Shown in pieces: positions 16,961 to 64,000 of a stretch of DNA of 64,000 nucleotides (positions are counted from its first letter, which is position 1; every line of letters starts with the position of its first letter). A model generated the notes under the pieces. The model did not search any database. It had not been told where the DNA came from and worked only from the letters and a program-made list of their open reading frames with translations. The stretch lies in contig CACVBU010001004.1 in the NCBI GenBank assembly GCA_902728285.1, positions 39,869-103,868 on the forward strand, in the 5' to 3' direction. The DNA comes from Clytia hemisphaerica (Eukaryota > Cnidaria > Hydrozoa > Leptothecata > Clytiidae). The position numbers and the translations under genes were made by a program.

Positions 16961-16964
16961 AATA

Positions 16965-36032: not shown

Positions 36033-36086
36033 AGTAAAATAAATCGTCTGATAAAAACCAGGGAAATCGGTGGATTATATTCTTAC

Positions 36087-38893: not shown

Positions 38894-39064
38894 ACCTTAT
38901 CGGAGTTTTTGATTTTTCTAAAAAAGTGATGCATTGTGGGATTGTTTCGAGTGTATAACAATAGAAATCTCCTAGGAATTCCTCGAGAGAATTCTATTGT
39001 AATACACTCGAAACAATCCCACAATGCATCGCTTTTTTAGAAAAATCAAAAACTCCGATAAGGT
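38894..39064. repeat. Foldback element with ~70 bp arms and TAG flanks
   Basis: ACCTTATCGGAGTTTTTGAT and the following sequence up to ACACTCGAAACAATCCC-type sequence are inverted around a ~30 bp loop, with only about two differences. TAG occurs on both sides (38891-38893, 39065-39067). It is non-coding. Confidence 0.8.
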
Positions 39065-39920
39065 TAGAGTTTGAACTCGTGCAAAATTAGTTTTGTTCTC
39101 AGCATGTAAGGCAAAGATAATTATTCTAATGTTACATTAATAAAATCAAGCAATCTGAATGTGTGAAATGGTTTGGTTTTAAGTGCAGCTTTGGTTTAGG
39201 GTCAGAGTTTGAAATAATATGTTTTTGATATATAAAATACAGTAAAACTGTATTGAAATAATGTGTATTTTTGATACCGAAACATTACGTCATTACTCAA
39301 AAGAGTATACTCTTAAAAGTAATGAACAGCGTTAAGATCTGGCGGGAGGTATTCCTTCGGGAACCTAAAGACAGCCATCGACGAACACGTAGCCCAGCTG
39401 GATTTCAACCTGCTACGTGAAGACTGACCGTGAGTGCTTAACCGACCGAGGGCAAGTGAAGTTGAAAAACTTGCTTAAATGACTTGCTGTGAAGGAAAAA
39501 AACAGGGTCAACCTCCAGCTCGCACGCGACTTGTTTTTCGTCACGTTTAAGCGTTTACCTGTTAGTTTTCATATATACTTGGCTAACCAGAATCCTAACT
39601 TAATTAAACTCGGTTTAAAAAATGCTGACCAAAAGTAGCATAAAGCTTTTTAGAAAAATTTCTCGTAAATTGTCATAAGTACATTGAATTGAAGTGATAA
39701 TCGTAATATCCATAATCAAAAGAACAAATGAATAAGGTGGACTAAAGTCACAGTTCAAACGACTCAATATCGATCATTGGAATTCCACCAGAATCTCTAC
39801 GATAAAGAGGGATATTACGACTATCCAAAATTTTATCATACAAAAAGAAACTGCTAAAACCAAACCACGCCCCTACTAATGAAATCCCAAAAAATAAAGA
39901 TAAAACAAAAAAGACTTCAC

Positions 39921-40109
39921 CGATGAAATTCTCAGTTTTGATCTATTGTCCATTGATACACTGCGAAAATCCAAATATTCCAAATAATTTTCCTGGAGAG
40001 CTTGATCGACCAGTTTAACGTTTGTTACTGAAATTGAACCGATGAAGACGACAACTGGATTGTTACTTCCATAACATAGGATTTCGCCACCTTCCAAACT
40101 AGGTACAAG
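39921..40109 (-). CDS. Candidate internal exon, unknown protein (left arm)
   Basis: Acceptor CTACTTTTCATAG|CTT and donor TCATCG|GTGAAG bound exactly 63 codons in phase 0-0, reading LVPSLEGGEILCYGSNNPVV, then VFIGSISVTNVKLVDQALQE and LEYLDFRSV... The coding character is convincing and the hydrophobic VVVFIGSISV suggests a folded core. I recognise no family. The same 189 bp exon sits at 63166-63354 in the other arm but with compensating indels that garble the frame. It lies inside the 37933-42957 TIR element. Confidence 0.45.
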
Positions 40110-40390
40110 CTATGAAAAGTAGAAAAAGTAATGAGTTTTGGTACAACAGTCCAGTCTTTGTGGCTCAAGCAGAGTCCAGTATACTACGACTACGTAGTCG
40201 TTCGAGTTATGGGACGTTCAAGTTTTAGAGAAGAAAAACAGCCTAAGATTTTCTCAAAGGAACGAGAAAAACTGTTCGAGTGATACATTTTGAGACATCA
40301 GGAAACTTTCGAGTTACGGAGAGTCGACCTGGTCGACTGTAGTAGTATAATAGAACTAATGAATACGAAAAAAGACACTAAGTTTGAAAT

Positions 40391-40801
40391 CAGCCGGCGA
40401 GGTGACCTTTTGAGATGTTTCAGCTAGAGATTTTGATCTGTTCTGATAAGATCTTCGAAAATTAATCAGCTAGAAATAATGGTGTGTTCTGACGAGACGG
40501 GTATAACCAAGGTCATCAAACGTGTTCTTGTTGTCTTGGTAACCCTAGAAAGCTTCAGAACACATCTTTTAAGTAGACAGGGGAGGGGGTATAATATAGA
40601 TAAAATTTATGTGATCTTGTTGCCTGGTAACCGTAGAAAGTTTCAGAACACATCTTTCGTGGAAAAAATCAAATATCTTACAAGTCGATAAAGGTTTTAT
40701 AGAAATCAGAACACATCATTTGTATAAGAAAATCGAAGTTCATAACATGTGGTCTCCTAGAAGATAAGAACACATATTTCCAAAAAATTCTCCGCCGGCT
40801 G
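40391..40801. mobile_element. MITE-like unit with CAGCCGGCG ends and internal repeats
   Basis: CAGCCGGCG at 40391 is inverted at 40793-40801. The interior repeats a GTAACC.TAGAAAGYTTCAGAA-type block (near 40539, 40627 and weaker copies), as well as TGTTCTGA and its inverse. Confidence 0.4.
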
Positions 40802-41194
40802 CATATGTCAATTGTTGTGTATAAGTCGTATAAGTGACAGACTAGCCCACCAACCTATACTTTTTTCAGCTACAAAACAATATAAATACTTGATTTGTTT
40901 GATAAATTACAAGTTGACTTTTGATAGCCAGCAGTATCTTGCACTTTATTTCTTGCTTGATTCCTCGATATTTTTTAAGTTTTGAAAGAAAACGAATTTT
41001 CGCGCTATCAAAAATACAACTGTAAAACTATGAAAAAGTCTTCCATATAAGGAAATTTGCAAACATGGAAAAACGGACAAAATCAATGCGAAAGAAATCA
41101 AATTTTTCTCTTCAATACTTATATGTGTGGGAAAGGTGTAGAGGTGTGAAAAATACTTGTGTGCGATTTACACATTTCTATTGCAAAGGAAACA

Positions 41195-41241
41195 ATGGAA
41201 AGACAAATTAAACATCACAAGAAATATAAACTTCTTTATCG
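41195..41241 (+). CDS. Candidate first exon of plus-strand gene (left arm)
   Basis: ATG at 41195 (MERQIKHHKKYKLLY..) ends at a donor TATCG|GTAAGT. Joined to 41628 the split codon gives Arg and the frame continues RLDDITVKNS. The mirror in the right arm has homopolymer differences. Confidence 0.4.
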
Positions 41242-41627
41242 GTAAGTTTTATTACTTTGATTTCAATTTTATGGATTTTAAAATTAAAAAAAAAAAATTT
41301 CCCATACCAATTTGATAGCAAAATTTAATTTGATAAGATTTTTATAAGAAAAATGTATGAAGAGAGAAATTTTCGATTACGTAATGAAAATCTACTCCAA
41401 TCAGCTTTTAAGATTCAAAATGAATTTGTCCAATCAGCTTTCATTGCTAGATTTTCAAATTCTGTTCATTATTCGTTGATATTTTTTTTCAATACAATAT
41501 TTTTGTTAGTCTGTTGTCTTATATATTTTTAGTTGAGCGGGGTAACAGCATGGAGGGGAGTTTTTTTTGATAGAATAAATTTGAAATAAGTTTCATTTTT
41601 ACCATTAATTTTTATTTTGCTCTTTAG

Positions 41628-41736
41628 ATTAGATGATATTACCGTAAAAAATTCAGCAAATTACTATTATGGAATAAAGAAAGACGCCAAAAACGACCAT
41701 TGGCTCGCAATATCTTGGTTGGAAAAAGAAATTTGA
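41628..41736 (+). CDS. Candidate second exon of plus-strand gene (left arm)
   Basis: Acceptor TTTTGCTCTTTAG|A. The frame is LDDITVKNSANYYYGIKKDA, then a C-terminal stretch that differs between arms: NDHWLAISWLEKEI then stop in the left arm, TTSLARNILVGKRNLIVS.. in the right. One arm must carry an indel. I cannot decide the family. The right-arm reading slightly recalls BEN-domain sequence, at low confidence. Confidence 0.35.
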
Positions 41737-41878
41737 TTGTATCGATATATTCAGTTCCTTGATGAGAATTATACAAATTACTAGCTAATTATCAAATTAC
41801 TCGCTAATGTTATTGACTGAAGACAATGTAAAAATCGACAAGATGACTAAGATGACGTAGTGAACCACCGACTTACAG

Positions 41879-42048
41879 AGAAAGCTGTGCTTGAAAATTG
41901 CAAAAAATCCAGTTGAACTGACTGACAAACACAATGGGAAATGGAAGTCATGTCAGTTGCTGAGCGATCAAACGATACTGAACTACAGGAGCTATTCATG
42001 GATTCATCTTTTCCTAAAGGTTCTCTGTGGATGTCGTTAGAAATTTGA
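41879..42048 (+). CDS. Candidate third exon of plus-strand gene (left arm)
   Basis: After an acceptor CGACTTACAG|A the right-arm copy gives a clean frame through KLCLKIAKNPVERLTNTMGM, EVMSVAERSNDTELQELFMD and SSFPKGSLWMSLEI to a stop. The left arm has two indels in the middle, and its last 37 residues are in the same frame. Neighbouring exons at 41195 and 41628 share orientation. The function is unknown. Confidence 0.45.
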
Positions 42049-42224
42049 AATCTATGTAAACACGTAAAAAACGTAAATGGTTGGGATATATTTTCTGGAC
42101 ATGTATTAAAATTGTATTTGTTACTTTATTTTAATAAAATCGTTCTTCAAAATGATTGTATTTTAGCATATTATAGAAACAAGCAAGAAACCTATATTCA
42201 CATTGCATTTCAAACGTGCTTTAA

Positions 42225-42660
42225 AGTAGAACCCAGATCCATTTTCGACCATTTCCTAATTTATCCAGTTTAAGGACAATTTTGAACAAGCTAATAGTTC
42301 TACATTGGAAAGTGCTTTTTTACAAAGTTTGGGAAGAGTAAAATCTAGAACCATTTTCGACCATTCCCTAATTTAAACAGTTTCAGGGCAAGTTTGGTTA
42401 AGCTAAGTTCTGCATTGGTAAGTGCTTTTTTACAAAGTTTGGGAAAAGTAATATCTAGATCCATTCTCGACCATTCCTTAATTCAAACAGTTTCAGGACA
42501 AGTTTGGATAAGCTAAGTTCTACATTGGGAAGTGCTTTTATACAAAGTTTGGGAAAAGTTAAATCCAGATCCATTTTCGACCATACCCTAATTCAAACAC
42601 AATTCCAAATATGGGGGAAAACATAATATTTTAATGGGAAATGATGTTTCACAATAAAGT
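42225..42660. repeat. Tandem array, ~117 bp unit, about four copies
   Basis: The unit carries ATCCATTTTCGACCATTCCC, TTTCAGGACAAGTTTG, GCTAAGTTCTACATTG and CTTTTTTACAAAGTTTGGGA. It is mirrored at about 60640-61080 and subterminal in the 37933-42957 element. Confidence 0.8.
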
Positions 42661-43285
42661 TTGGCAAACGTAACATCTGGACCCGTTTTTTTGCTGGTTC
42701 CCAGCGTCAATCTAGGCTAACAAAAGGTCTGGACAAAAATAAATCGGTTAGGTTTTTGTCATTTTTGGATTGTGAAACTGTGACTCACAAGCTCCAGAAA
42801 TTGAAATTCCCAACCAGGGTATCCGAATATCCGCATCCAGATTTAAAGTTTGTGAAATTGCATATCCCAACCTTGTGATTAGTTTGGGAAACTCACCTAT
42901 TCCCAAATCTGGAAACGACATTTCACAAAGCTTGTGATCTATTAATTTTTTCCTGTGAATTGTTCGAAAAGATCTCTGAGAAAAAACCCAGAATAAAGAT
43001 CGTGCTATAAAATTTACGTTTTCCAGTAAGAAAATGTAATATACGGAGGAGATATTTTCGTGTTTTTTCTACACTTTACTACGTTCTGTAAAATACAACT
43101 ATGAAAATCAAAATGGCAACAAGCATTTTCAGTGGATCGTGGATTTTCTTCATCATCCAAAATTCAAATTTACAGCTTTCTACCTTTTATTTTCTGGTAG
43201 AAAATGGTATATTTGTTTTGATGAAAGTATTATCTCTCAGATTCTCCTTATTATAGCCTCTAAAATTGACATTTTTCAAATATTA

Positions 43286-43656
43286 TGCATTGTGCACCCG
43301 GGGAGGGGGGGCAGCTGGGCAAAAGGACCGACGGGTATGTGCGGGTCCTAAGGGTACCTTTTCCAATATGTTTAAAATGCTCTGTAAGGGTCGGAAAAAC
43401 TAGAGATGCACTGTAAGGATAGAAATTTCAGAAAATTCTTGAAAAATCTAGATATTTTGACCAAAAATGCTAGAATTTTGACCATTTTTTGCACGAAAGG
43501 GATCGAAAATTTGGGGGAAAATGCACTCTAAGGGTATGATTTTCACTGATTTTTGCTGCACTGTAAGGGTGCAATTTTAAAAGCCAATTTTTGGCCCGCA
43601 CATACCGTCAGTCCGCAAACCCAGTGCCCCCCCCCCCCCCCGGATTGTGCATTATG
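43286..43656. mobile_element. GC-rich-ended MITE (left arm)
   Basis: TGCATTGTGCACCCGGGG with a G-run and GGACCGACGGGTATGTGCGG is inverted at the right end, with a C-run of about 15 bases. The interior repeats CTGTAAGG(G)T-like words. Mirror 59655-60030. Confidence 0.65.
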
Positions 43657-43667
43657 AAATATGCATT

Positions 43668-45187
43668 ACTAGCCGGTACCCGGCGTCGCACGCCTGTTAA
43701 GCTGTAGCTGAATGCACTAAAAGTCCTTTGGATGTTGAAGCTGGCTTAAAAAAAACGATCAAATGAATAAAAAGATATCTTCAAAGTTTGACTCTGACCC
43801 TCCACCGGGGGTCTTTTTCTCGCTTCGCTCGCATTAAATACGACGTCCAGTTTTCCACAATTTGAGAAAATGTCACGGTAAAGAGGATTGAAATGTTAAA
43901 ATGACAGTTCTTTATGAAAAAGCGGGAAAGCCACAAAGAATAGTGCAACTTTGTTTTTATCTGACCTAAAAAGATAAATAAGTCAATACACCTTTCCCGT
44001 AATTCAAACTTCTCAGAAATGGCCCGGGAAAATGTGCGCTCCACTGTTGTGTCTAAAATTGTTTTGGGGGTAAACAAACGCGTTTTTGCCTGCGAGGGGT
44101 TAGGGAAAGTGGGTTTTCAGCTTCTAAATTTTGATAGCGATCTTCTTTTGGCAAAAGATTTTCAGGGTGGTATACTATCATGAATAGATTGAACATACAA
44201 AAATTTGAGGGGATTTTGTTTGACAGAACTTGGGAAAAGCTCAAAAAACCAACGAAGGGTTTGTTTACCTCCAGAGACCAAACGGTGGAGAATATGAAAC
44301 TATTGCGCGTGCATTAGTTTTACGAATTACGGGAAAGGTGATTCTAAATTGTTTTTTTAAACCTTTTGTTTAACTTTTCGAATTTAAACATGTAAAATAA
44401 CGTACCCTTAAAGGAAGAAATTTTGGCGGGAATTTAATTTGGCGGATGGCCAAAAAAGTTTTTTCAGAGGGAATTTAATTTGGCAGATGGACGAAAAAAC
44501 TAAATTTGGCATGAATTTAAAAGTTTAACCTTAAGATGGCGTGAAAACAGCGAAAAAAGCAAAAACACCTTAAAAGAGATCATATTTTCAAAATGTTTAA
44601 TTTGGCGGGAATTTAATTTGGCGGATGGCGGAAAAAAGAAATTTTGGCGGGAACTTAATTTGGCGGATTTCAGTCAAATCCGCCAAATCTTCTTTCCGCC
44701 AAAATTTCTTCCTTTAAGGTACATAGTTAAAGAGATGGACTACTTTCTTCTCTTGCTTTTATCGCACTTTGAATGCTGTTATTGTTCGACAAACTTTTTA
44801 AATTTATGTTTTGATTTACATTTGAAATGTTGTTTTGTTGTGAAAAGAATTCGAATGTCATTAATAAATACATCCAAAAACATTTCAAACAAAAGAAAAG
44901 AGAAAAACAGGACCAGGCAAAGCTGGGCAGAAATTAAAATTCCTAAATGTAGATGGGCCTTAAATTTCGAAACAAAGGCTGAATAAAGTCTAAACCAGGC
45001 TCTATCCGATCTGTCAATCAAAACAAACTTATCGAGAACAAAACATTGCTTGCGAAATCTTTTGCAGATGGCGCGAATCCAATAGAACAGATTTGTGAAG
45101 CAAGAGACTAAAAGTCATAATTCTAAAACACAAACGAAAACGAAAGTGGTGACACACAAACACACACAACACCCGCTATTAATATAT
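43668..45187 (+). mobile_element. Dispersed GTACCCGGCGTCGC repeat, second copy (left arm)
   Basis: It starts ACTAGCCGGTACCCGGCGTC and ends CTATTAATATAT like the 27413-28428 copy. It is longer because of the MITE at 44402-44722 and other unique sequence. Mirror 58121-59644, where the start has GGTACCC duplicated. No protein is supported. Confidence 0.65.
44402..44722. mobile_element. MITE rich in TTTGGCGG (left arm)
   Basis: GTACCCTTAAAGGAAGAAAT with TTTTGGCGGG at the left is inverted at 44696-44722. GGGAATTTAATTTGGCGGAT repeats several times inside. Mirror 58584-58905. It is nested in the dispersed repeat. Confidence 0.7.
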
Positions 45188-45910
45188 TGATGTTTTTGCA
45201 TTTTGTACCCGTCGCTTATAAATGGGGCTTTAGGGCATTATTTACTTTGATAAGTCTATTGAAATCGTAAAAGACATTCCTGGGATTGATCAATGCCCAT
45301 GTGACATCAGGACATTTTGAATAAAACTCAAATTTAGGATTTTCTTCGGGAATTTTAAATGTCTTTTCGTAGGAGTATTCACAAGTTTTGTGTTCCCTGA
45401 TAGAAATATTTGACAGGCAACTGTGTGTGTTAATGTAATAAATGATTTCTTCTTGATTTATTTGGAAAGTATGGATAATTTAAAGTTAACAAGAATAGAG
45501 AAGGAAGAATTTCTTTCTCGCTTTATCTGCCTATGAGTTTCTCCTGTTTGTGTCTTCTTGATACGATTGCAGCATGACAACGGGTGTAAATTTCCATCTT
45601 CTACATTTGTATTTAGGAAGCAGCTGAACAGTCATACCAGACAGGGAGTCCAGCCATCCAGCCATAAATTTGGATACTGATAAATTTGTATGTTGCTGCA
45701 ACCACACGAGCCGTCCTACAAAATGAAGAGAAAAAACAAACTCAAAAATTAAAAAAAAAACTGTCTACTGTATTTTAATCAGTTCATTCCCCTTCGCAAT
45801 TTTCATCAGCCTTGAAAAAAACTAATAGTACTTTCAATCCAAATAAAAATGTTTAAAATAATGCCTACCTTCAAAAGCTTCTTTGTATAAACGTCTGTTG
45901 CACCATCCAT
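45188..45910. other. Non-coding, TACCCGTCGC motif
   Basis: TTTTGTACCCGTCGCTTATA at 45201 matches 37450-37475 in inverse. The rest is unassigned AT-rich sequence. Confidence 0.4.
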
Positions 45911-48288
45911 CCCCCGAAGAAACCCTGACATAATCATTGGCTCAGAAACCCACGTTGACCCTTCAATCGGTGAATCTGAATTTGTTCCACCAGGCTACAC
46001 TGCTTTCCGTAGGGATCGTGAGGATGGTTGGGGTGGAGTTGTTATAATGACCAAGCTTTCCCTTATTGCTAAAGAAGTATTCAATTCCAAAGACACTGAG
46101 TGTATAACAGTCAAAATTGAAACATTTAAAAAACCAGTTTGTTATAGTTTCTGCTTACAGAGCACCAGAAACAAAATTGCCATACCTCGAAAATTTAAAA
46201 CAAAGGACATTAAATCAATTGCCTCAAAGTACGAGACAAGTCCAATCTGGATTGGGGGCGACTGGAATCTACCTGATATTGACTGGTCAACAAACTCAAT
46301 CGTCAGTCACAATTACTCAAAACAAATCAACGAAACAGCAATTAAATGGTTTATGACTGTAACCTTGACCGAATCATTGACTTTCCAACAAGAATAAACC
46401 AATACCCTTGATATAATATTGACAATAAACTCTTCACTCCTGTCAGATGTGAAGAATTTCCCAGGGATAAGTGATCACACTGCTATTGGTGTAATTGATG
46501 TTATTTGCCATCCTATCTGGCAGCGCTCAATTAAAAAAAACGGTCCATGTATGGAGTAGAGCGAACATTCCATTACTGAAAGAAGACCTAAAAACAACAT
46601 GTGCACTATTCTGTGCTAAACACGAGAATGGAGATTTTGCTATTGACACAATATGGGGAGAGTTTAAAGACATCATCAACGAAACCATGAGAAAGATACC
46701 AACCAAAAACTCCACGTCAAAGATTCAGCCAGCCATGGGTAAATCGGAAGTGTAGAAGATTATCCCGCAGAAAGAATCGCCTATACAAACGCGCAAAACA
46801 AACACGACTCGAATCAGATTGGTCCAGGTTTCGAAATGTTGTCAATGAGTGCCAAAAACAGTGTCGTAAAGCACATGACAAGTACATCAATGAAAGCATC
46901 CTAGAATCATCTGACACCAAGCGCGTTTACAAGTTTATCAAATATAAACAAAAAGACGATATCACAGTTGCCCCATTAAAGAAGAATGGGAGTCTTATCA
47001 TCGACGATCGGAAAAAAGCAAATATCCTTAATGAACAGTATTGAAGTGTTTTCTCTATTCGTAACAAAGATATACCACCCATTAGATCGCCAACTGTTGA
47101 GAATTCAATGTCCGAGATCGAAATAAACAAAAGTGGTGTCGAAGCGCTACTTAACCGGCTTAATCCACAGAAAGCAACAGGACCGGATAGCATATCATCA
47201 AGATTCCTAAAGGAATTTTCAGCTAAGATTTCTTCACCCCTCACAATGATATTCGAACTGTCCCTCAAATCAGGTACCCTTCCCAAAGACTGGTCGCATG
47301 CATTTTCTTGTACCTGTGTACAAAGGGGGTAACAAAGATAAGAACCAGGCTGAAAATTATCGACCAGTTTCACTCACATCGATTTGTTGCAAGTGCCTGG
47401 AACATATTATTTATAGCAATGCAATGACACACCTTAATGATAATAAAGTATTGAGTGACTACCAACATGGTTTCAGAGAAAAACGTTCATGTATGAGTCA
47501 ACTTTTAACCACCGTCAACGACTTTGCTAGGAACCTTAATGATAAGAAACAAATAGACCCTATCTTACTGGACTTTAGCAAGGCATTTGACAAAGTTAAC
47601 CCCTTCAAACTTTGTCTAAAGGCATCACACTATGGTATTCGAGGCACCACACTTAAATGGATAAAAGCATTCCTATCAAACAGAACGCAACAAGTTTTAC
47701 TAAACGGGAAATCCTCAGATACGGCTAACGTTTTGTCTGGTGTACCCCAAGGCATCGTACTTGGACGACTATTATTCTTGATTTACATCAACGACATGCC
47801 ATCATACGTTAAATCTAACATTCGCCTATTTGCAGATGACGCTTACTTGTATCGCATAATTGATAGTATTTGTGACCCAATCACACTTCAAGATGACCTC
47901 ACAGCACTTCAGCAATGGGAGACACTATGGGATATGGAATTTCATCCTCAAATGTGCAAACATCTCCCAATTACAAATAAAACCAAACCCATAGAAAGCA
48001 CATCTTCTATCCATCAAACAGAGCTTGAGAAAGTATCTAACGCTAAATAACTTGGAGTAACCCTGAACAATAAGCTCAAGTGGAACACTCATATCGACAC
48101 AATATGCAAAAAGGCAAATCAAAAGAGATCTTTTCTTCAAAGGAACCTGAGGAATTGTTCATGTAAAATCAAAGCGAAAGCATTCAATACATATGTTAGA
48201 CCTATCCCGTCCTATGCATCTCCAGTGTGGAACCCAGTATCGAGCCAAACCTTATGTGATAATCTTGAAATGGTCCAACGAAAATAGA
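45911..48288 (+). pseudogene. CR1-like LINE ORF2 (endonuclease + RT), broken, left arm
   Basis: The endonuclease part reads RNPDIIIGSETHVDPSIGES, GYTAFRRDREDGWGGVVIMT, then the hallmark GGDWNLPDIDW at about 46250. A linker follows and the RT part has RLNPQKATGPDSI, ENYRPVSLTSICCKCLEHII, DFSKAFDKV, SGVPQGIVLGRLLFLIYIND and FADDAYLY. The C-terminal segment with YVRPIPSYASPVWNPV and LEMVQRK ends abruptly at a stop at 48288. Several one- or two-base shifts break the frame. The layout and motifs are those of CR1/Rex-type LINEs. The normal region after VQR is missing, so the 3' end is lost. Confidence 0.8.
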
Positions 48289-49990
48289 AATGAATTTAAA
48301 ATCGAAATTTCGTCTTATTTTGACAGAAACTAGATCATATGGTTTTTTTCCCTTGTGTATCAGCCTCTTATGTTTTCTTAATCACTAACACCAGGTTGCC
48401 TTGGCCCTAGTTCAAGCTTGTTTAACACTAATTCCCAGGTCAGCATCAATTTACGTTCTTGAAGCCTTTTCCAATTAACTCTTACTTAACACAAGGAGTA
48501 ATTTCTAGTATAATGCCTAGCATTTCTAACTTTTAGTGATTTATTTACATATATTTTATTTATTTAATTTGTCTTACCTTTTTATTTTGCATGAAGCTGA
48601 TGAAACTTCCTATTTTTTTGCAAGTTTAGGTTAGCCTCCACCCATGTTTTTTATTCTCACTAATTTTAAATTCTTTGCCTTTGTTTACCTTACTCTTTCT
48701 TACATCACTCATTTGAAGCATTTCTCTCTGAAAACCATAAAAATATTTTAAATGTTTAACTCATTTAGTATTTATTTTTTTGAACTTGTTGAACTTGTTG
48801 AACTTCTCATCACCGCCAATTTACATTTTCAGCTTGAGGATTCAACTTAATTTCAAACTCCTCGTTTTCAATACCGCCCCGCTTTCACATTTTGGTATTC
48901 TCAGCACCAAGCGATTATGTTAAGCTTTGTGTCAACATTCTCAGCCTTAATTCTCAACTTTACTACTTATCCTCGGTTTGATATGAGCTTTTCTTTAGGA
49001 ATTTTATATTATAAATTAATTTTGAATAAAGAACCAAACATTTATTTTAACTCGTTTTCATTTATTTTTTTGTTAAATGTTTTTATATGTAGGGAAAACG
49101 AACATGTATGTTTTGTTACTACTTAAATATATACATAGATAGATAAAGAAAGACCTGAAGTAACACACAAGAAAAAAAAGATATTGAAGGAACACAAAAA
49201 AAGCTTTGACCTTCAAATCTAGTATCTATCACCATAAGCCAGATTATTGAGGCTCTTTTTGATACAATTTTCCAATAGAAATCTTTGGGAAGAAGTAAGA
49301 CTGTTTGAAGGATCTTGGAGATTTAAAGTCACTAAACCCCAGGTTCCATCCAAGAAAACATAAAAAAACAAGCCGATCAAATTTTCAGAAGCTTTTTGAA
49401 GTTTAAAAAGTAAATTGATTCAATTAACTTAAAGATTTTTAACAAAAGCCTCCATCCACCATAAAAAATGAGTGAAAAAGTCGCTACTTTGGCTACCATG
49501 TTGCCACTCGTTGCGCTGATATCAGCCAATCGAAATGTGCCGCGGGAAAATCGGAGACTTTGATTGGTTTGTTTTTTGAGCAATGGAATGCGTCAATCAC
49601 TTGATCAAAACATATATTATTAGCCTCCGCATCGAAACGCGGTCAGCGAATTTTGCGGATTAATTTCACAGCGAAAATGCATCCAGTGAAGTGTGTGTAA
49701 TGCATCATGATTCAAGTCCACTTAAATAATTATATACTATATACATAATATATGTTACAAGTTCTGTACGGATTCTCAAGCTCGGTTATAATAAAAACTA
49801 TTACATTTTAGTAGCAGAACCGACTAACATTGTTATGTAGCTGGAAAGATGCAGTTTGTTTTCAAGTTAAATCTTTAAAGTAAAACAAATTGTGTGGGTT
49901 TTTTCTACTTCCAAACACCTACCAATAGTTTTAGTACACTCCATAATAAAGGAAGATGGCTCATCTTTTGGATGACTTTCTGGTTACCCC
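48289..49990. other. Non-coding, unassigned
   Basis: AT-rich sequence following the truncated LINE. GAACTTGTT repeats three times near 48783. No gene is supported despite a few short open frames. Confidence 0.4.
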
Positions 49991-50570
49991 ATAAACACGA
50001 TGTGACATGAAAGTGAAGAGACATGATTTGTTGGTTTTTGTTTGATTTGTTGACTCCTATATCTCATGGCAAATGGGATAGCAAATGACTTTTCATGTAT
50101 TGCTTGGCTACATATGATATACTTCTAACTTTGAACACCTCCAGAATGTTGAAAAAAGCATTTTACGAGATAACTTTCGATTATAATTTTCATGGAAATT
50201 TTTAATCGACAGATTTGACTTGGCGTCAGTTTTGTTTGGTTGATAAATCTTTAGCTACACCATGACCGTGGGATGATTTCCAATAAACTTTTTTTGTTGT
50301 ACAATGACTTTTATGTCTGGCTTAGTTATATGATTGGTATCAGAATGTTAGGAAAAAAACATTTTACGAGAAATTGTTGATATAAATTATATTGACTTTA
50401 CAATTTTGGCGGTGTGGGTTTTGTTGGTTGATGATGTTTACACTATAGGATGGTTTTCAAAAAACTGTTATATTGATTGTTGTTTGTTGGAATTAATTAC
50501 CAAAAAAAGAGAACCTTTTTTGATAAATACTTTATTTTTTTTAATGATTCGAAAAAAAAACATCTTTCTC
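49991..50570. repeat. Two diverged ~225 bp direct repeats
   Basis: GACTTTTCATGTATTGCTTG..AGAATGTTGAAAAAAGCATT (from 50088) is echoed by GACTTTTATGTCTGGCTTAG..AGAATGTTAGGAAAAAAACA (from 50306), with further parallel blocks ending in TTGGTTGAT. Confidence 0.5.
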
Positions 50571-50784
50571 TAGTCTTGTAAACCAATGCAGTGTCTGTTT
50601 TCAAATATTGAAAGCTCTATACCTACTGAATTGAAGCTCTGACTAGCTCTGTTTTTAAAACATTGAGCCATAGATTTTTACTTTGTCGTAATGTAAATTT
50701 TTGGCAAACAGCATGCCAGTTCTATCTGGACAATTATGTATGTATACTCTATTGTATTGTTGATAATGCTTTTGTGTGAAAATA

Positions 50785-51125: not shown

Positions 51126-51639
51126 AAAATTTATGAAACACTGGGATCTTCAATTTTTCCATTGAAGTAGGACTAGGAAATTTCTCACTAAGGTAGGGAT
51201 TTATTTAATCATAACTCAAATGAGACTTCAAAATGTTTCGAAAGCATATAATTGTTTATTACCATGAATTCTTGTAGAATTTATGTAATTTAGTCATATC
51301 TTAGTGGTTAATAAATAAAGCAGGTAGTACAATTTGTTTGGTTTTTCTTTATCATTCCAACCATTAAGGTTTATAAAAGAAGATTTACTCATTTTTGTCT
51401 CGTGTTATCAGACTGGTCATAACAACCTGTAACAATAGTCAACTACTTTTGTTTTGTAATGGAAAGTTGATAATGCTCATCAAACAAGCATTATAGCAAA
51501 AACTAGATTGATTTGAGTATTGATCAATGTATAAATTCTCCTAAACTTTTGTTGTTATTGTTTATTTTAATAATACTAATGAAAGGAAGTGTAGCCATTT
51601 ACACAAAATTTGTTATCATGTTAAGTACCCTATTGTTTT

Positions 51640-51651
51640 TATAAACCCTAT
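51640..51651. other. 12 bp spacer at palindrome centre
   Basis: TATAAACCCTAT separates the perfectly paired 19 bp immediately flanking each side. Such a short spacer is what a fold-back template switch, or a read passing from one strand to its complement, would leave. Confidence 0.9.
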
Positions 51652-54600
51652 AAAACAATAGGGTACTTAACATGATTAACAAATTTGTGTAAATGGCCCA
51701 CTTCCTTTCATGTATTATTAAAATAAACAATCAACAAAAGTTTAGGAGAATTATACATTGATCAATACTCAAATCAATCTAGTTTTGCTATAATGCTTGT
51801 TTGATGAGCATTATCAACTTTCCATTACAAAACAAAAGTAGTTGACTATTGTTACAGGTTGTTATGACCAGTCTGATAACACGAGACAAAAATGAGTAAA
51901 TCTTCTTTTATAAACCTTAATGGTTTGGAATGATAAAGAAAAACCAAACAAATTGTACTACCTGCTTTATTTATTAACCACTAAGATATGACTAAATTAC
52001 ATAAATTCCTACAAGAATTCATGGTAATAAACAATTTATATGCTTTCGAAACATTTTGAAGTCTCATTTGAGTTATGATTTAAATAAATCCCTACCTTAG
52101 TGAGAAATTTCCTAGTCCTACTTCAATGGAAAAATTGAAGATCCCAGTGTTTCATAAATTTTACCTAGTTTACGCTATTTTATGGACGCAATTATGACTT
52201 TTATTAAAAGCTTCAGATTTTCATTTTGAAATTCCTGAAAGCACCCCTATATGCTGAATGTGTCCTGAAAAATTCAGAAGTGTGGCTCAAACCATTAAAA
52301 AAGTTAACTAGTTTTCTATTTTGGCGCTAGATTTAGAATTTTGGCTTTCTCAGCAGTTTTACGCTATTTTTTGGACGCCATTATGAATTTTCTAAATAGG
52401 TTCAGATTTCCATTAAAGATTCTTTCAAAATATCTCTATGAGTAGAATGCTTCCTGCAAAGTTCAGAAATTTGGCTCAAACCATTAAAAAGTTATTGTAT
52501 TTTTATTTTCACACAAAAGCATTATCAACAATACAATAGAGTATACATACATAATTGTCCAGATAGAACTGGCATGCTGTTTGCCAAAAATTTACATTAC
52601 GACAAAGTAAAAATCTATGGCTCAATGTTTTAAAAACAGAGCTAGTCAGAGCTTCAATTCAGTAGGTATAGAGCTTTCAATATTTGAAAACAGACACTGC
52701 ATTGGTTTACAAGACTAGAGAAAGATGTTTTTTTTTCGAATCATTAAAAAAAATAAAAGTATTATCAAAAAAGGTTCTCTTTTTTTGGTAATTAATTCCA
52801 ACAAACAACAATCAATATACCAGTTTTTTGAAAACCATCCTATAGTGTAAACATCATCAACCAACAAACCCACACACCGCCAAAATTGTAAAGTCCAATA
52901 TAATTTTATATCAACAATTCTCGTAAAATGTTTTTTTCCCAACATTCTGATACCAATCATATAACTAAGCCAGACATAAAAAGTCATTGTATAACAACAA
53001 AAGTTTATTGAAAATCATCCCACGGTCATGGTGTAGCTAAAGATTTATCAACCAAACAAAACTGACGCCAAGTCAAATCTGTCGATTAAAAATTTCCATG
53101 AAAATTATAATCGAAAGTTATCTCGTAAAATGCTTTTTTCAACATTCTGGAGGTGTTCAAGTTAGAAGTATCATATGTAGAGCCAAGCAATACATGAAAA
53201 GTCATTTTGCTATCCCATTGCCATGAGATATATGAGTCAACAACAAACAAAAAAACCAACAAATCATGTCTCTTCACTTTCATATCACATCGTGTTTATG
53301 GGGTAACCAGAAAGTCAATCCAAAAGATGAGCCATCTTCCTTTATTATGGAGTGTACTAAAACTATTGGTAGGTTGTTTGGAAGTAGAAAAACCCACACA
53401 ATTTGTTTTACTTTAAAGATTTAACTTGAAAAACAAACTGCATCTTTCCAGCTACATAACAATGTTAGTCGGTTCTGCTACTAAAATGTAATAGTTTTAT
53501 TATAACCGAGCTTGAGAATCCGTACAGAACTTGTAACATATATTATGTATATTATGTATATAATTATTTAAGTGGACTTGAATCATGATGCATTACACAC
53601 ACTTCACTGGATGCATTTTCGCTGTGAAATTATCCGCAAAATTCGCTGACCGCGTTTCGATGCGGAGGCTAATAATATATGTTTTGATCAAGTGATTGAC
53701 GCATTCCATTGCTCAAAAAACAAACCAATCAAAGTCTCCGATTTTCCCGCGGCACATTTCGATTGGCTGATATCAGCGCAACGAGTGGCAACATGGTAGC
53801 CAAAGTAGCGACTTTTTCACTCATTTTTTATGGTGGATGGAGGCTTTGTTAAAAATCTTTAAGTTAATTGAATCAATTTACTTTTTAAACTTCAAAAAGC
53901 TTCTGAGAAATTTGATCGGCTTGTTTTTTATGTTTTCTTGGATGGAACCTGGGGTTTAGTGACTTTAAATCTCCAAGATCCTTCAAACAGTCTTACTTCT
54001 TCCCAAAGATTTCTATTGGAAAATTGTATCAAAAAAGAGCCTCAATAATCTGGCTTATGGTGATAGATACTAGATTTGAAGGTCAAAGCTTTTTTTGTGT
54101 TCCTTCAATATCTTTTTTTTCTTGTGTTTACTTCAGGTCTTTCTTTATCTATCTATGTATATATTTAAGTAGTAACAAAACATACATGTTCGTTTTCCCT
54201 ACATATAAAAACATTTAACAAAAAAATATAAATGAAAAAACGAGTTAAAATAAAATGTTTGGTTCTTTATTCAAAATTAATTTATAATATAAAATTCCTA
54301 AAGAAAAAGCTCATATCAAACCGAGGATAAGTAGTAAAGTTGAGAATTAAGGCTGAGAATGTTGACACAAAGCTTAACATAATCGCTTGGTGCTGAGAAT
54401 ACCAAAATGTGAAAGCGGGGCGGTATTGAAAACGAGGAGTTGAAATTAAGTTGAAGTCCTCAAGCTGAAAATGTAAATTGGCGGTGATGAGAAGTTCAAC
54501 AAGTTCAACAAGTTCAAAAAAATAAATACTAAATGAGTTAAACATTTAAAATATTTTTATGGTTTCAGAGAGAAATGCTTCAAAATGAGTGATGTAAGAA

Positions 54601-55012
54601 AGAGTAAGGTAAACAAAGGCAAAGAATTTAAAATTAGTGAGAATAAAAAACATGGGTGGAGGCTAACCTAAACTTGCAAAAAAATAGGAAGTTTCATCAG
54701 CTTCATGCAAAATAAAAAGGTAAGACAAATTAAATAAATAAAAATATATGTAAATAAATCACTAAAAGTTAGAAATGCTAGGCATTATACTAGAAATTAC
54801 TCCTTGTGTTAAGTAAGAGTTAATTGGAAAAGGCTTCAAGAACGTAAATTGATGCTGACCTGGGAATTAGTGTTAAACAAGCTTGAACTAGGGCCAAGGC
54901 AACCTGGTGTTAGTGATTAAGAAAACATAAGAGGCTGATACACAAGGGAAAAAAAAACCATATGATCTAGTTTCTGTCAAAATAAGACGAAATTTCGATT
55001 TTAAATTCATTT

Positions 55013-57396
55013 CTATTTTCGTTGGACCATTTCAAGATTATCACATAAGGTTTGGCTCGATACTGGGTTCCACACTGGAGATGCATAGGACGGGATAGGT
55101 CTAACATATGTATTGAATGCTTTCGCTTTGATTTTACATGAACAATTCCTCAGGTTCCTTTGAAGAAAAGATCTCTTTTGATTTGCCTTTTTGCATATTG
55201 TGTCGATATGAGTGTTCCACTTGAGCTTATTGTTCAGGGTTACTCCAAGTTATTTAGCGTTAGATACTTTCTCAAGCTCTGTTTGATGGATAGAAGATGT
55301 GCTTTCTATGGGTTTGGTTTTATTTGTAATTGGGAGATGTTTGCACATTTGAGGATGAAATTCCATATCCCATAGTGTCTCCCATTGCTGAAGTGCTGTG
55401 AGGTCATCTTGAAGTGTGATTGGGTCACAAATACTATCAATTATGCGATACAAGTAAGCGTCATCTGCAAATAGGCGAATGTTAGATTTAACGTATGATG
55501 GCATGTCGTTGATGTAAATCAAGAATAATAGTCGTCCAAGTACGATGCCTTGGGGTACACCAGACAAAACGTTAGCCGTATCTGAGGATTTCCCGTTTAG
55601 TAAAACTTGTTGCGTTCTGTTTGATAGGAATGCTTTTATCCATTTAAGTGTGGTGCCTCGAATACCATAGTGTGATGCCTTTAGACAAAGTTTGAAGGGG
55701 TTAACTTTGTCAAATGCCTTGCTAAAGTCCAGTAAGATAGGGTCTATTTGTTTCTTATCATTAAGGTTCCTAGCAAAGTCGTTGACGGTGGTTAAAAGTT
55801 GACTCATACATGAACGTTTTTCTCTGAAAAACCATGTTGGTAGTCACTCAATACTTTATTATCATTAAGGTGTGTCATTGCATTGCTATAAATAATATGT
55901 TCCAGCCACTTGGCAAACAAATCGATGTGAGTGAAACTGGTCGATAATTTTCAGCCTGGTTCTTATCTTTGTTACCCCCTTTGTACACAGGTACAAGAAA
56001 ATGCATGCGACCAGTCTTTGGGAAGGGTACCTGATTTGAGGGACAGTTCGAATATCATTGTGAGGGGTGAAGAAATCTTAGCTGAAAATTCCTTTAGGAA
56101 TCTTGATGATATGCTATCCGGTCCTGTTGCTTTCTGTGGATTAAGCCGGTTAAGTAGCGCTTCGACACCACTTTTGTTTATTTCGATCTCGGACATTGAA
56201 TTCTCAACAGTTGGCGATCTAATGGGTGGTATATCTTTGTTACGAATAGAGAAAACACTTCAATACTGTTCATTAAGGATATTTGCTTTTTTCCGATCGT
56301 CGATGATAAGACTCCCATTCTTCTTTAATGGGGCAACTGTGATATCGTCTTTTTGTTTATATTTGATAAACTTGTAAACGCGCTTGGTGTCAGATGATTC
56401 TAGGATGCTTTCATTGATGTACTTGTCATGTGCTTTACGACACTGTTTTTGGCACTCATTGACAACATTTCGAAACCTGGACCAATCTGATTCGAGTCGT
56501 GTTTGTTTTGCGCGTTTGTATAGGCGATTCTTTCTGCGGGATAATCTTCTACACTTCCGATTTACCCATGGCTGGCTGAATCTTTGACGTGGAGTTTTGG
56601 TTGGTATCTTTCTCATGGTTTCGTTGCGTTGATGATGTCTTTAAACTCTCCCCATATTGTGTCAATAGCAAAATCTCCATTCTCGTGTTTAGCACAGAAT
56701 AGTGCACATGTTGTTTTTAGGTCTTCTTTCAGTAATGGAATGTTCGCTCTACTCCATACATGGACCGTTTTTTTTAATTGAGCGCTGCCAGATAGGATGG
56801 CAAATAACATCAATTACACCAATAGCAGTGTGATCACTTATCCCTGGGAAATTCTTCACATCTGACAGGAGTGAAGAGTTATTTGTCAATATTATATCAA
56901 GGGTATTGTTTATTCTTGTTGGAAAGTCAATGATTCGGTCAAGGTTACAGTCATAAACCATTTAATTGCTGTTTCGTTGATTTGTTTTGAGTAATTGTGA
57001 CTGACGATTGAGTTGTTGACCAGTCAATATCAGGTAGATTCCAGTCGCCCCCAATCCAGATTGGACTTGTCTCGTACTTTGAGGCAATTGATTTAATGTC
57101 CTTTGTTTTAAATTTTCGAGGTATGGCAATTTTGTTTCTGGTGCTCTGTAAGCAGAAAACTATAACAACTGGTTTTTTAAATGTTTCAATTTTGACTGTT
57201 ATACACTCAGTGTCTTTGGAATTGAATACTTCTTTAGCAATAAGGGAAAGCTTGGTCATTATAACAACTCCACCCCAACCATCCTCACGATCCCTACGGA
57301 AAGCAGTGTAGCCTGGTGGAACAAATTCAGATTCACCGATTGAAGGGTCAACGTGGGTTTCTGAGCCAATGATTATGTCAGGGTTTCTTCGGGGGA
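55013..57396 (-). pseudogene. CR1-like LINE ORF2, mirror copy in right arm
   Basis: Reverse-complement counterpart of 45911-48288 with its own indels: two extra bases near 55829 close the RT frame earlier, and the endonuclease frame (GGDWNLPDIDW) shifts at a different point. Elsewhere it is open where the left copy is broken (a run of 118 residues at 56260-56616), so the two copies correct one another. Confidence 0.8.
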
Positions 57397-58120
57397 TGGA
57401 TGGTGCAACAGACGTTTATACAAAGAAGCTTTTGAAGGTAGGCATTATTTTAAACATTTTTATTTGGATTGAAAGTACTATTAGTTTTTTTCACGGCTGA
57501 TGAAAATTGCGAAGGGGAATGAAACTGATTAAAATACAGTAGACAGTTTTTTTTTTAATTTTTGAGTTTGTTTTTTCTCTTCATTTTGTAGGACGGCTCG
57601 TGTGGTTGCAGCAACATACAAATTTATCAGTATCCAAATTTATGGCTGGATGGCTGGACTCCCTGTCTGGTATGACTGTTCAGCTGCTTCCTAAATACAA
57701 ATGTAGAAGATGGAAATTTACACCCGTTGTCATGCTGCAATCGTATCAAGAAGACACAAACAGGAGAAACTCATAGGCAGATAAAGCGAGAAAGAAATTC
57801 TTCCTTCTCTATTCTTGTTAACTTTAAATTATCCATACTTTCCAAATAAATCAAGAAGAAATCATTTATTACATTAACACACACAGTTGCCTGTCAAATA
57901 TTTCTATCAGGGAACACAAAACTTGTGAATACTCCTACGAAAAGACATTTAAAATTCCCGAAGAAAATCCTAAATTTGAGTTTTATTCAAAATGTCCTGA
58001 TGTCACATGGGCATTGATCAATCCCAGGAATGTCTTTTACGATTTCAATAGACTTATCAAAGTAAATAATGCCCTAAAGCCCCATTTATAAGCGACGGGT
58101 ACAAAATGCATAAAACATCA

Positions 58121-59644
58121 ATATATTAATAGCGGTGTTTGTGTGTTTGTGTGTCACCACTTTCGTTTTCGTTTGTGTTTTAGAATTATGACTTTTAGTC
58201 TCTTGCTTCACAAATCTGTTCTATTGGATTCGCGCCATCTGCAAAAGATTTCGCAAGCAATGTTTTGTTCTCGATAAGTTTGTTTTGATTGACAGATCGG
58301 ATAGAGCCTGGTTTAGACTTTATTCAGCCTTTGTTTCGAAATTTAAGGCCCATCTACATTTAGGAATTTTAATTTCTGCCCAGCTTTGCCTGGTCCTGTT
58401 TTTCTCTTTTCTTTTGTTTGAAATGTTTTTGGATGTATTTATTAATGACATTCGAATTCTTTTCACAACAAAACAACATTTCAAATGTAAATCAAAACAT
58501 AAATTTAAAAAGTTTGTCGAACAATAACAGCATTCAAAGTGCGATAAAAGCAAGAGAAGAAAGTAGTCCATCTCTTTAACTATGTACCTTAAAGGAAGAA
58601 ATTTTGGCGGAAAGAAGATTTGGCGGATTTGACTGAAATCCGCCAAATTAAGTTCCCGCCAAAATTTCTTTTTTCCGCCATCCGCCAAATTAAATTCCCG
58701 CCAAATTTAACATTTTGAAAATATGATCTCTTTTAAGGTGTTTTTGCTATTTTTTCGCTGTTTTCACGCCATCTTAAGGTTAAACTTTTAAATTCATGCC
58801 AAATTTAGTTTTTTCGTCCATCTGCCAAATTAAATTCCCTCTGAAAAAACTTTTTTGGCCATCCGCCAAATTAAATTCCCGCCAAAATTTCTTCCTTTAA
58901 GGTACGTTATTTTACATGTTTAAATTCGAAAAGTTATAACAAGGGTTTAAAAAAACAATTTAGAATCACCTTTCCCGTAATTCGTAAAACTAATGCACGC
59001 GCAATAGTTTCATATTCTCCACCGTTTGGTCTCTGGAGGTAAACAAACCCTTCGTTGGTTTTTTGAGCTTTTCCCAAGTTCTGTCAAACAAAATCCCCTC
59101 AAATTTTTGTATGTTCAATCTATTCATGATAGTATACCACCCTGAAAATCTTTTGCCAAAAGAAGATCGCTATCAAAATTTAGAAGCTGAAAACCCACTT
59201 TCCCTAACCCCTCGCAGGCAAAAACGCGTTTGTTTACCCCCAAAACAATTTTAGACACAACAGTGGAGCGCACATTTTCCCGGGCCATTTCTGAGAAGTT
59301 TGAATTACGGGAAAGGTGTATTGACTTATTTATCTTTTTAGGTCAGATAAAAACAAAGTTGCACTATTCTTTGTGGCTTTCCCGCTTTTTCATAAAGAAC
59401 TGTCATTTTAACATTTCAATCCTCTTTACCGTGACATTTTCTCAAATTGTGGAAAACTGGACGTCGTATTTAATGCGAGCGAAGCGAGAAAAAGACCCCC
59501 GGTGGAGGGTCAGAGTCAAACTTTGAAGATATCTTTTTATTCATTTGATCGTTTTTTTAAAGCCAGCTTCAACATCCAAAGGACTTTTAGTGCATTCAGC
59601 TACAGCTTAACAGGCGTGCGACGCCGGGTACGGGTACGGCTAGT
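58121..59644 (-). mobile_element. Dispersed GTACCCGGCGTCGC repeat, mirror copy
   Basis: Mirror of 43668-45187, including the nested TTTGGCGG MITE at 58584-58905. The terminus reads CGGGTACGGGTACGGCTAGT, with one repeated GGTAC unit compared with the left arm. Confidence 0.65.
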
Positions 59645-59654
59645 AATGCATATT

Positions 59655-60030
59655 TCATAATGCACAATCCGGGGGGGGGGGGGGCACTGGGTTTGCGGAC
59701 TGACGGTATGTGCGGGCCAAAAAATTGGCTTTTAAAATTGCACCCTTACAGTGCAGCAAAAATCAGTGAAAATCATACCCTTAGAGTGCATTTTCCCCCA
59801 AATTTTCGATCCCTTTCGTGCAAAAAAATGGTCAAATTCTAGCATTTTTGGTCAAAATATCTAGATTTTTCAAGAATTTTCTGAAATTTCTATCCTTACA
59901 GTGCATCTCTAGTTTTTCCGACCCTTACAGAGCATTTTAAACATATTGGAAAAGGTACCCTTAGGACCCGCACATACCCGTCGGTCCTTTTGCCCAGCTG
60001 CCCCCCCTCCCCGGGTGCACAATGCATAAT
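59655..60030. mobile_element. GC-rich-ended MITE, mirror copy
   Basis: Mirror of 43286-43656. G-run and C-run lengths differ from the left arm. Confidence 0.65.
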
Positions 60031-60639
60031 ATTTGAAAAATGTCAATTTTAGAGGCTATAATAAGGAGAATCTGAGAGATAATACTTTCATCAAAACAAA
60101 TATACCATTTTCTACCAGAAAATAAAAGGTAGAAAGCTGTAAATTTGGATTTTGGATGATGAAGAAAATCCACGATCCATTGAAAATGCTTGTTGCCATT
60201 TTGATTTTCATAGTTGTATTTTACAGAACGTAGTAAAGTGTAGAAAAAACACGAAAATATCTCCTCCGTATATTACATTTCTTACTGGAAAACGTAAATT
60301 TTATAGCACGATCTTTATTCTGGGTTTTCTCAGAGATCTTTTCGAACAATTCACAGGAAAAAATTAATAGATCACAAGCTTTGTGAAATGTCGTTTCCAG
60401 ATTTGGGAATAGGTGAGTTTCCCAAACTAATCACAAGGTTGGGATATGCAATTTCACAAACTTTAAATCTGGATGCGGATATTCGGATACCCTGGTTGGG
60501 AATTTCAATTTCTGGAGCTTGTGAGTCACAGTTTCACAATCCAAAAATGACAAAAACCTAACCGATTTATTTTTGTCCAGACCTTTTGTTAGCCTAGATT
60601 GACGCTGGGAACCAGCAAAAACGGGTCCAGATGTTACGT

Positions 60640-61080
60640 TTGCCAAACTTTATTGTGAAACATCATTTCCCATTAAAATATTATGTTTTCCCCCATATTT
60701 GGAATTGTGTTTGAATTAGGTTATGGTCGAAAATGGATCTGGATTTAACTTTTCCCTAACTTTGTATAAAAGCACTTCCCAATGTAGAACTTAGCTTATC
60801 CAAACTTGTCCTGAAACTGTTTGAATTAAGGAATGGTCGAAAATGGATCTAGATATACTTTTCCCAAACTTTGTAAAAAAGCACTTCCCAATGCAGAACT
60901 TAGCTTATCCAAACTTGCCCTGAAACTGTTTAAATTAGGGAATGGTCGAAAATGGTTTTAGATTTTACTCTTCCCAAACTTTGTAAAAAAGCACTTTCCA
61001 ATGTAGAACTATTAGCTTGTTCAAACTTGTCCTTAAACTGGATAAATTAGGAAATGGTCGAAATGGATCTGGGTTCTACT
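60640..61080. repeat. ~117 bp tandem array, mirror copy
   Basis: Mirror of 42225-42660, with about four units containing GGGAATGGTCGAAAATGG-type sequence. Confidence 0.8.
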
Positions 61081-61249
61081 TTAAAGCACGTTTGAAATGC
61101 AATGTGAATATAGGTTTCTTGCTTGTTTCTATAATATGCTAAAATACAATCATTTTGAAGACGATTTATTAAAATAAGTAACAAATACAATTTTAATACA
61201 TGTCCAGAAAATATATCCCAACCATTTACGTTTTTTACGTGTTTACATA

Positions 61250-62105
61250 GATTTCAAATTTCTAACGACATCCACAGAGAACCTTTAGGAAAAGATGAAT
61301 CCATGAATAGCTCCTGTAGTTCAGTATCGTTTGATCGCTCAGCAACTGACATGACTTCCATTCCCATTGTGTTTGTCAGTCGTTCAACTGGATTTTTTGC
61401 AATTTTCAAGCACAGCTTTCTCTGTAAGTCGGTGGTTCACTACGTCATCTTAGTCATCTTGTCGATTTTTACATTGTCTTCAGTCAATAACATTAGCTAG
61501 TAATTTGATAATTAGCTAGTAATTTGTATAATTCTCATCAAGGAACTGAATATATCGATACAATCAAATTTCTTTTTCCAACCAAGATATTGCGAGCCAA
61601 TGATGTCGTTTTGGCGTCTTTCTTTATTTCCATAATAGTAATTTGCTGAATTTTTTACGGTAATATCATCTAATCTAAAGAGCAAAATAAAAATTAATGG
61701 TAAAAATGAAACTTATTTCAAATTTATTCTATCAAAAAAAACTCCCCTCCATGCTGTTACCCCGCTCAACTAAAAAATATAAGACAACAGACTAACAAAA
61801 AATTGTATTGAAAAAAATATCAACGAATAATGAACAGAATTTGAAAAATCTAGCAATGAAAGCTGATTGGACAAATTCATTTTGAATCTTAAAAGCGGAT
61901 TGGAGTAGATTTTCATTACGTAATCGAAAATTTCTCTCTTCATAATTTTTTTATAAAAATCTTATCAAATTAAATTTTGCTATCAAATTTGGTATGGAAA
62001 TTTTTTTTTTTAATTTTAAAATCCATAAAATTGAAATCAAAGTAATAAAACTTACCGATAAAGAAGTTATATTTCTTGTGATGTTTTAATTGTCTTTCCA
62101 TTGTT
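61250..62105 (-). CDS. Mirror copy of the plus-strand exons
   Basis: Contains the reverse-complement counterparts of 41195-42048. The third exon is cleaner here (frame through ERLTNTMGMEVMSVAERSND to the stop). The first is altered near the donor (KKYNFFI instead of KKYKLLYR). Confidence 0.4.
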
Positions 62106-63165
62106 CCTTTGCATAGAAATGTGTAAATCGCACACAAGTATTTTTCACCCCTCTACCTTCCCACACATATAAGTATTGAAGAAAAAATTTGATTTCTTTC
62201 GCATTGATTTTGTCCGTTTTCCATGTTTGCAAATTCCTTATATGGAAGACTTTTCTAGTTTTACAGTTGTATTTTTGATACGCGAAAATTCTTTCTTTCA
62301 AAACTTAAAAAAATATCGAGGAATCAAGCAAGAATAAGTGCAAGATACTGCTGGCTCTCAAAGTCAACTTGTATTTATCAAACCAATCAAGTATTTATAT
62401 TGTTTGTAGCTGAAAAAAAAAGTATAGGTTGGTGGGCTAGTCTGTCACTTATACGACTTATACACAACAATTGACATATGCAGCCGGCGGATAGAGTTTT
62501 TTTAGAAATATGTTTTCTTATCTTCTAGGAGACCACATGTTATGAACTTCGATTTTCCTATACAAATGATGTGTTCTGATTTCTAGAAAACCTTTATCGA
62601 CTTGTAAGATATTTGATTTTTTCCACGAAAGATGTGTTCTGAAACTTTCTAGGGTTACCAGGCAACAATATCACATAAATTTTATCTATATATTATACCC
62701 CCTGTCTACTTAAAAGATGTGTTCTGAAGCTTTCTAGGGTTACCAAGACAACAAGAACACGTTTGATGACCTTGGTTATACCCGTCTCGTCAGAACACCA
62801 TTATTTCTAGCTGATTAATTTTCGAAGATCTTATCAGAACAGATCAAAATCTCTAGCTGAAACATGCTCTCAAAAGTCACCTCGCCGGCTGATTCAAACT
62901 TAGTGTCTTTTTTTCGTATTCATTAGTTCTATACTACTCAGTCGACCAGGTCGACTCTCCGTAACTCGAAAGTTTCCTGATGTCTCAAATGTATCACTCG
63001 AACAGTTTTTTCTCGTTCCTTTGAGAAAATCTTAGGCTGTTTTTCTTCTCTAAAACTTGAACGTCCCATAACTCGAACGACTACGTGTCGTAGTTATTGG
63101 ACTCTGCTTGAGCCACAAAGACTGGACTGTTGTACCAAAACTCATTACTTTTTTACTTTTCATAG

Positions 63166-63354
63166 CTTGTACCTAGTTTGGAAGGTGGCGAAATCCTATG
63201 TTATGGAATCGTAACAATCCAGTTGTCGTCTTCATCGGTTTCATTTCAGTAACAAACGTTAAATGGTCGATCAAGCTCTCCAGGAAAATTATTTGGAATA
63301 TTTGGATTTTCGCAGTGTATCAATGGACATAGATCAAAACTGAGAATTTCATCG
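63166..63354 (+). CDS. Mirror copy of the 63-codon exon (frame garbled)
   Basis: Same acceptor (ACTTTTCATAG|CTT), same donor (TCATCG|GTGAAG) and the same 189 bp length as 39921-40109. Insertions near 63210 and deletions near 63262 and 63330 shift the frame internally. Confidence 0.45.
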
Positions 63355-64000
63355 GTGAAGTCTTGTTTTATCTTTATTTTTTGGGATTTCATTAGTAGGG
63401 CGTGTTTGGTTTTAGCAGTTTCTTTTTGTATGATAAAATTTTGGATAGTCGTAATATCCCTCTTTATCGTAGAGATTCTGGTGGAATTCCAATGATCGAT
63501 ATTGAGTCGTTTGAACTGTGACTTTAGTCCACCTTATTCATTTGTTCTTTTGATTATGGATATTACGATTATCACTTCAATTCAATGTACTTATGACAAT
63601 TTACGAGAAATTTTTCTAAAAAGCTTTATGCTACTTTTGGTCAGCATTTTTTAAACCGAGTTTAATTAAGTTAGGATTCTGGTTAGCCAAGTATATATGA
63701 AAACTAACAGGTAAACGCTTAAACGTGACGAAAAACAAGTCGCGTGCGAGCTGGAGGTTGACCCTGTTTTTTCCTTCACAGCAAGTCATTTAAGCAAGTT
63801 TTCAACTTCACTTGCCCTCGGTCGGTTAAGCACTCACGGTCAGTCTTCACGTAGCAGGTTGAAATCCAGCTGGGCTACGTGTTCGTCGATGGCTGTTCTT
63901 TAGGTTCCCGAAGGAATACCTCCCGCCAGATCTTAACGCTGTTCATTACTTTTAAGAGTATACTCTTTTGAGTAATGACGTAATGTTTCGGTATCAAAAA

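Follow-up and report, generated by a model that had tools for sequence, protein, structure and literature searches.

A palindrome with arms of at least 12.35 kb in a Clytia hemisphaerica contig, probably a fold-back chimera retained in the assembly

Organization of the locus

The window analysed here is a stretch of 64,000 nucleotides of contig C695 (C695:39869-103868) in a Clytia hemisphaerica genome assembly of 417 Mb and 951 contigs. When the window is compared with its own reverse complement by BLASTN, positions 39268-64000 match themselves inverted with 98.197% identity. This self-hit includes 97 mismatches and 352 gap letters and counts each arm twice, so that about 48 mismatches and about 176 gap letters belong to each arm. 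The core of the palindrome has exact arms of 25 bp, the left ending at 51639 and the right starting at 51652, with a spacer of 12 bases (51640-51651) between them. Within 39268-64000, 19,486 20-mers have their reverse complement in the same interval, against 0 in each of three mononucleotide shuffles, and the palindrome is therefore not a product of chance. It is confirmed as present in the assembled contig. The self-match and the mapping of the exact arms agree with a preliminary description of a giant near-perfect palindrome with arms over 12.3 kb and a 12 bp spacer. That description took 39268 as the start of the arm; the position is no boundary and only mirrors the end of the window (39268+64000=103268). 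The features of the region, in window positions, are as follows.

35286-39267, forward strand: stretch also present in C470 (520 to about 4497); its mirror, if any, would fall in the N run beyond the window
37925-41294 (approximate), forward strand: dispersed element of the outer arm, with many partial copies of about 86-95% identity
39268-51639, forward strand: left arm; its outer edge is the mirror of the window end only, and identity with C470 reaches left to 35286
47250-48050, forward strand: reverse-transcriptase frame (RVT_1 in Pfam), 266 aa stop to stop, in the left arm; same length in C470
51626-51639, forward strand: left half and loop of a native inverted repeat; the sequence turns back here
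51640-51651, no strand: spacer at the turn, 12 bases; relative to C470, the end of the top strand followed by the opposite strand
51652-64000, reverse strand: right arm, the reverse complement of the left arm; runs into N (C695:103869-110291)
55250-55843, reverse strand: right-arm mirror of the reverse-transcriptase frame, 197 aa between stops

The N run covers 6,423 bases and starts exactly at the window end. Comparison of the sequence beyond 64000 with the left arm, a check proposed with the preliminary description, meets the N run first and then 33.6 kb of fetched sequence without a mirror match. With the N run at the window end and no return of the mirror after it, the length of the right arm lies between 12.35 kb and about 18.8 kb. 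C695 runs on for 1.08 Mb beyond the N run. Its opening stretch (C695:1-12475) also consists of N; the 10 contig starts sampled all begin with other letters. No long fold-back was found in the first 3 kb of these 10 starts, a small and short-ranged sample, and two of them contain short inverted matches (33 and 92 bp) whose halves are separated by some 200-290 bp.

Unfolded copies in C470 and C421

In a genome search with the centre as query, two places match besides C695, one in contig C470 and one in contig C421. C470:520-16898 corresponds to C695:75154-91511 with 99.26% identity over 16.4 kb and then continues into other sequence, with no fold. The right arm matches the same place in C470 inverted, with 98.54% identity. 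A dispersed repeat at C470:16544-18582, 93% identical to its copy in C421, spans the centre unbroken in both of these contigs and is cut by the fold in C695. Unfolded sequence through the turn is present, then, in C470 and in the C421 copy of the repeat.

Left of C695:75154 the neighbours of the shared sequence differ. C470:1-519 is one dispersed repeat; at this place C695 carries the poly-A end of a reverse-transcriptase element. Three causes would account for the difference: an insertion that is polymorphic, an erroneous join at a repeat, or the presence of the locus twice in the genome. C470 may therefore represent another copy in the genome, or else one of the contigs may be joined wrongly at this point.

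Among the best 40 of 4,124 candidates, which were scored, the 7.5-kb core of the arm is complete in three, namely each of the two arms and C470. For this reason the core does not look like a high-copy mobile unit. Window 35286-41300 is complete in the left side and in C470; the right arm has just the inner portion, which starts at query base 3983, before the N run begins. For C470:20001-28000 the one complete match listed is C470 itself (for these two queries the best 40 of 4,871 and the best 40 of 5,599 candidates were scored). Terminal inverted repeats of a large transposon were considered as a source of the arms and rejected, given the three full-length places of the core among the matches listed and a centre that lies inside a dispersed repeat, not at its edge.

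Geometry of the centre

A native inverted repeat with 8-bp arms and a 6-base loop, complete in C470 (16882-16903), lies at the turn. Inverted 8-bp repeats of this kind occupy 1.0-1.5% of positions across four stretches, so the hairpin, noticed after the fact, is a mild coincidence. The left arm ends at C470:16898, and the right arm begins, reversed, from 16906, which is 4-8 bases past the end of the left arm. Measured with the outer 8-mers included, the centre (window 51626-51665) has 40 bases compared with 22 in the native hairpin and contains both strands of the loop: first the loop, next a few bases, and lastly the opposite strand, which runs back through the loop. The consensus may be in error in these 40 bases. 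If a 3' end had primed copying while folded on the native hairpin, whether in vivo or in vitro, a single copy of the loop would be expected between the inverted repeats. This single-loop centre is absent, and priming was rejected, allowing for such consensus error. The sequence of the centre fits a strand switch at the end of a duplex rather than priming. Fusion of sister ends in the cell would give the same centre, and the geometry thus speaks against priming and not against every biological route.

Differences among the two arms and C470

The left arm, the right arm and C470 differ in 194 events. The right arm has 110 private ones, the left arm 59 and C470 18; in the remaining 7 all three are different. 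In the 18 events private to C470 the two arms agree, and 13 are extra bases in C470; they may be errors in C470 or differences between two loci. Private differences of the right arm pile up at its outer end and at the centre; their variance/mean is 7.45, and the highest value among 5,000 uniform simulations is 2.49. Those of the left arm are clustered too, densest toward the centre (2.67 against 2.40), and those of C470 are weakly clustered (1.72, p 0.017). Among private indels, the right arm has 41 deletions and 22 insertions, and the left arm, with 17 and 19, has no deletion excess. Isolated private substitutions number 22 in the right arm (15 transversions), 5 in the left arm (3 transversions) and 1 in C470 (0 transversions). 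The reverse-transcriptase frame is shorter in the right arm (197 aa) than in the left arm and C470 (266 aa in both).

Whether homopolymer indels dominate the divergence, as the preliminary description states, varies with the aligner. In a MAFFT alignment of the arms there are 99 indel events, 60 of them in runs of 2 or more, and 149 columns with a substitution, many of which come from an insertion and a deletion lying within a few bases of each other. True substitutions, whose scatter had been taken to keep a real duplication open, are few once such indel pairs are set aside (22/5/1 isolated). The deletion excess, the clustering and the indel-pair changes of the right arm look like consensus error. 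Gene conversion in a real palindrome could also give uneven divergence; the deletion excess and the 'substitutions' made of indel pairs favour consensus error.

The dispersed element of the outer arm allows comparison with an outgroup, namely four fetched copies of its inner part from the many listed. There are 90 columns in which the left arm equals C470 and the right arm differs. The outside copies back the left arm and C470 in 73 of them, the right arm in 10 and neither in 7, and neighbouring columns are not independent. All 10 right-backing columns fall within alignment columns 1593-1838 (about 246 columns), together with 7 others that back the left arm and C470. Such a patch is not expected of random error and might reflect polishing with sequence from other copies (cross-polishing), or a right arm that is truly a separate copy. 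Three of the four outside copies have 90.6-91.6% identity with the left arm and a lower 87.8-88.8% with the right arm; in the fourth, L035, the best pieces are unequal in length, so left and right are not comparable. That the right arm is simply another copy of this element was rejected on the same columns, with 73/90 against it, the one patch of 10 for it and 7 undecided.

Between two parts of a dispersed element, in the left side and in C470, there is a 171-bp self-palindrome (38894-39064, 94%). It looks like a palindromic insertion, since these two parts are close together in scored copies elsewhere (81 bases apart in C594).

Origin of the palindrome

On the basis of C470, C421 and the error pattern, we consider it highly probable that the palindrome is a fold-back chimera retained by the assembler and not a structure of the chromosome. 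One DNA fragment would have ended at about C470:16898-16906, where the small native hairpin lies. The sequencer would have passed from the top strand of this fragment to the bottom strand as if they were a single molecule, or library preparation would have linked the two, and C695 would then have been lengthened with the folded read during assembly. The true continuation past the centre would be the one in C470. We infer the read-level origin, the platform and the link of the false arm to the sequence after the N run. The preliminary description had leaned toward a chimeric read of both strands, and the evidence from the genome itself (the unfolded contig, the clustered errors of the right arm and the strand-switch centre) tends the same way.

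Fold-back artefact reads are characterized in the Breakinator paper (PMC12870357) by a second half that lies within 200 bp on the opposite strand. The figures given there are about 0.55-0.6% of nanopore genomic reads, typically under half of them with a gap longer than 11 bp at the turn; of the three PacBio samples in that paper, the HiFi data contain virtually no such reads. The palindrome resembles the reads described there in its reverse-complement second half, its turn within a few bases and its near lack of a spacer. The second segment follows within 200 bp on the opposite strand (C470 16898 versus 16906), little or no extra sequence occurs at the turn (12-base spacer, 4-8 base offset), and unfolded sequence through the turn exists (C470, C421), with a different left neighbour in C470. 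Unlike those reads, it is seen in an assembled contig. Whole-genome amplification likewise gives palindromic chimeric long reads (Pacasus, PMC6218980; PMC13265396), which are similar in being artificial long inverted repeats that disturb assembly. Their origin is said in PMC13265396 to be the annealing of displaced 3' ends to nearby strands; strand ends that were joined match the two-loop centre in C695 more closely.

Several observations weigh against a chimera and are at the same time what a real, recent inverted duplication, in the organism or in one haplotype, would have in its favour. These are the unlike left neighbours of C470 and C695 at C695:75154, the patch of 10 right-private columns (of 90) that agree with outside copies, the 18 events common to both arms against C470, and the continuation of the contig past the N run, where the false arm would need a second misjoin if the run stands for withheld letters instead of a gap. 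The private differences of the left arm (59, clustered as well, with no deletion excess) and the lack of a long fold-back in all 10 sampled 3-kb contig starts also sit poorly with an artefact, the latter on a small sample. In a real duplication a break at the hairpin would have been followed by joining of the sister ends, and C470 would be either a further copy or the allele without the rearrangement. The position of the turn, within a native inverted repeat of 8-bp arms and a 6-base loop, also speaks for it, even if this was noticed afterwards and such repeats take up 1.0-1.5% of positions. We nevertheless regard this explanation as unlikely, and similarly unlikely in the specific form of a germline or somatic variant with at least 12.35 kb per arm, a near-zero spacer, sister strands joined end to end at the 8-bp hairpin and C470 as the unrearranged allele. 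If made by fold-back priming, the duplication should have one copy of the loop, and both loop strands are found; the deletion excess, clustering and indel pairs of the right arm look like consensus error. In yeast, fold-back priming targets an 11-bp imperfect repeat with a 6-bp spacer, according to PMC10622511, and the 8-bp arms and 6-base loop in C470 are a comparable short native inverted repeat at the turn, a feature shared with the human duplications as well (PMC3907307). In contrast to these yeast and human duplications, the palindrome has no single-loop centre and has an unfolded copy in C470, and the human spacers are far longer (766-70,466 bp, median 3,428, in the series given in PMC3907307), where sister fusion would leave none.

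Least probable, and in our view very doubtful, is a two- or three-copy segmental duplication of the 16.4-kb unit, two inverted copies of which the assembler joined at the centre. Such a duplication would account for a unit common to C470 and C695 with a left neighbour that is not. Isolated substitutions are few in the left arm (5 of 59 private events) and in C470 (1 of 18); the private events are mostly indels or indel pairs, so little resembles the divergence of old copies. The fold also lies inside the dispersed repeat and not at a repeat border.

If the fold-back chimera is the correct explanation, at least 12 kb is falsely duplicated, two unrelated regions may be joined in the contig, and gene counts, synteny and structural-variant calls would be misled. 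If the palindrome is real, it is an unusually long and almost spacerless one that survives in a eukaryotic genome, and it would be useful for learning how cells tolerate such sequences.

Other features of the window

No Rfam family of non-coding RNA scores above the gathering score within the window. At 32517-35285 lies an element whose reverse-transcriptase frame (32517-34649) spans 710 aa between stops; its poly-A tract ends where identity with C470 starts. Three copies of a 1.2-kb element (13124-14333, 15753-16966 and 20261-21466) are 96-98% alike and alternate in orientation. Two copies have frames of 380 and 406 aa, and the third has one of 176 aa; each frame resembles a PHD finger weakly, with a score under the Pfam cut-off. 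A short self-palindrome of 220 bp (88%) lies at 10713-10932, and tandem arrays are found at 1403-2008 (54-base units), 6386-6803 (45-base units) and 42223-42599 (110-base units).
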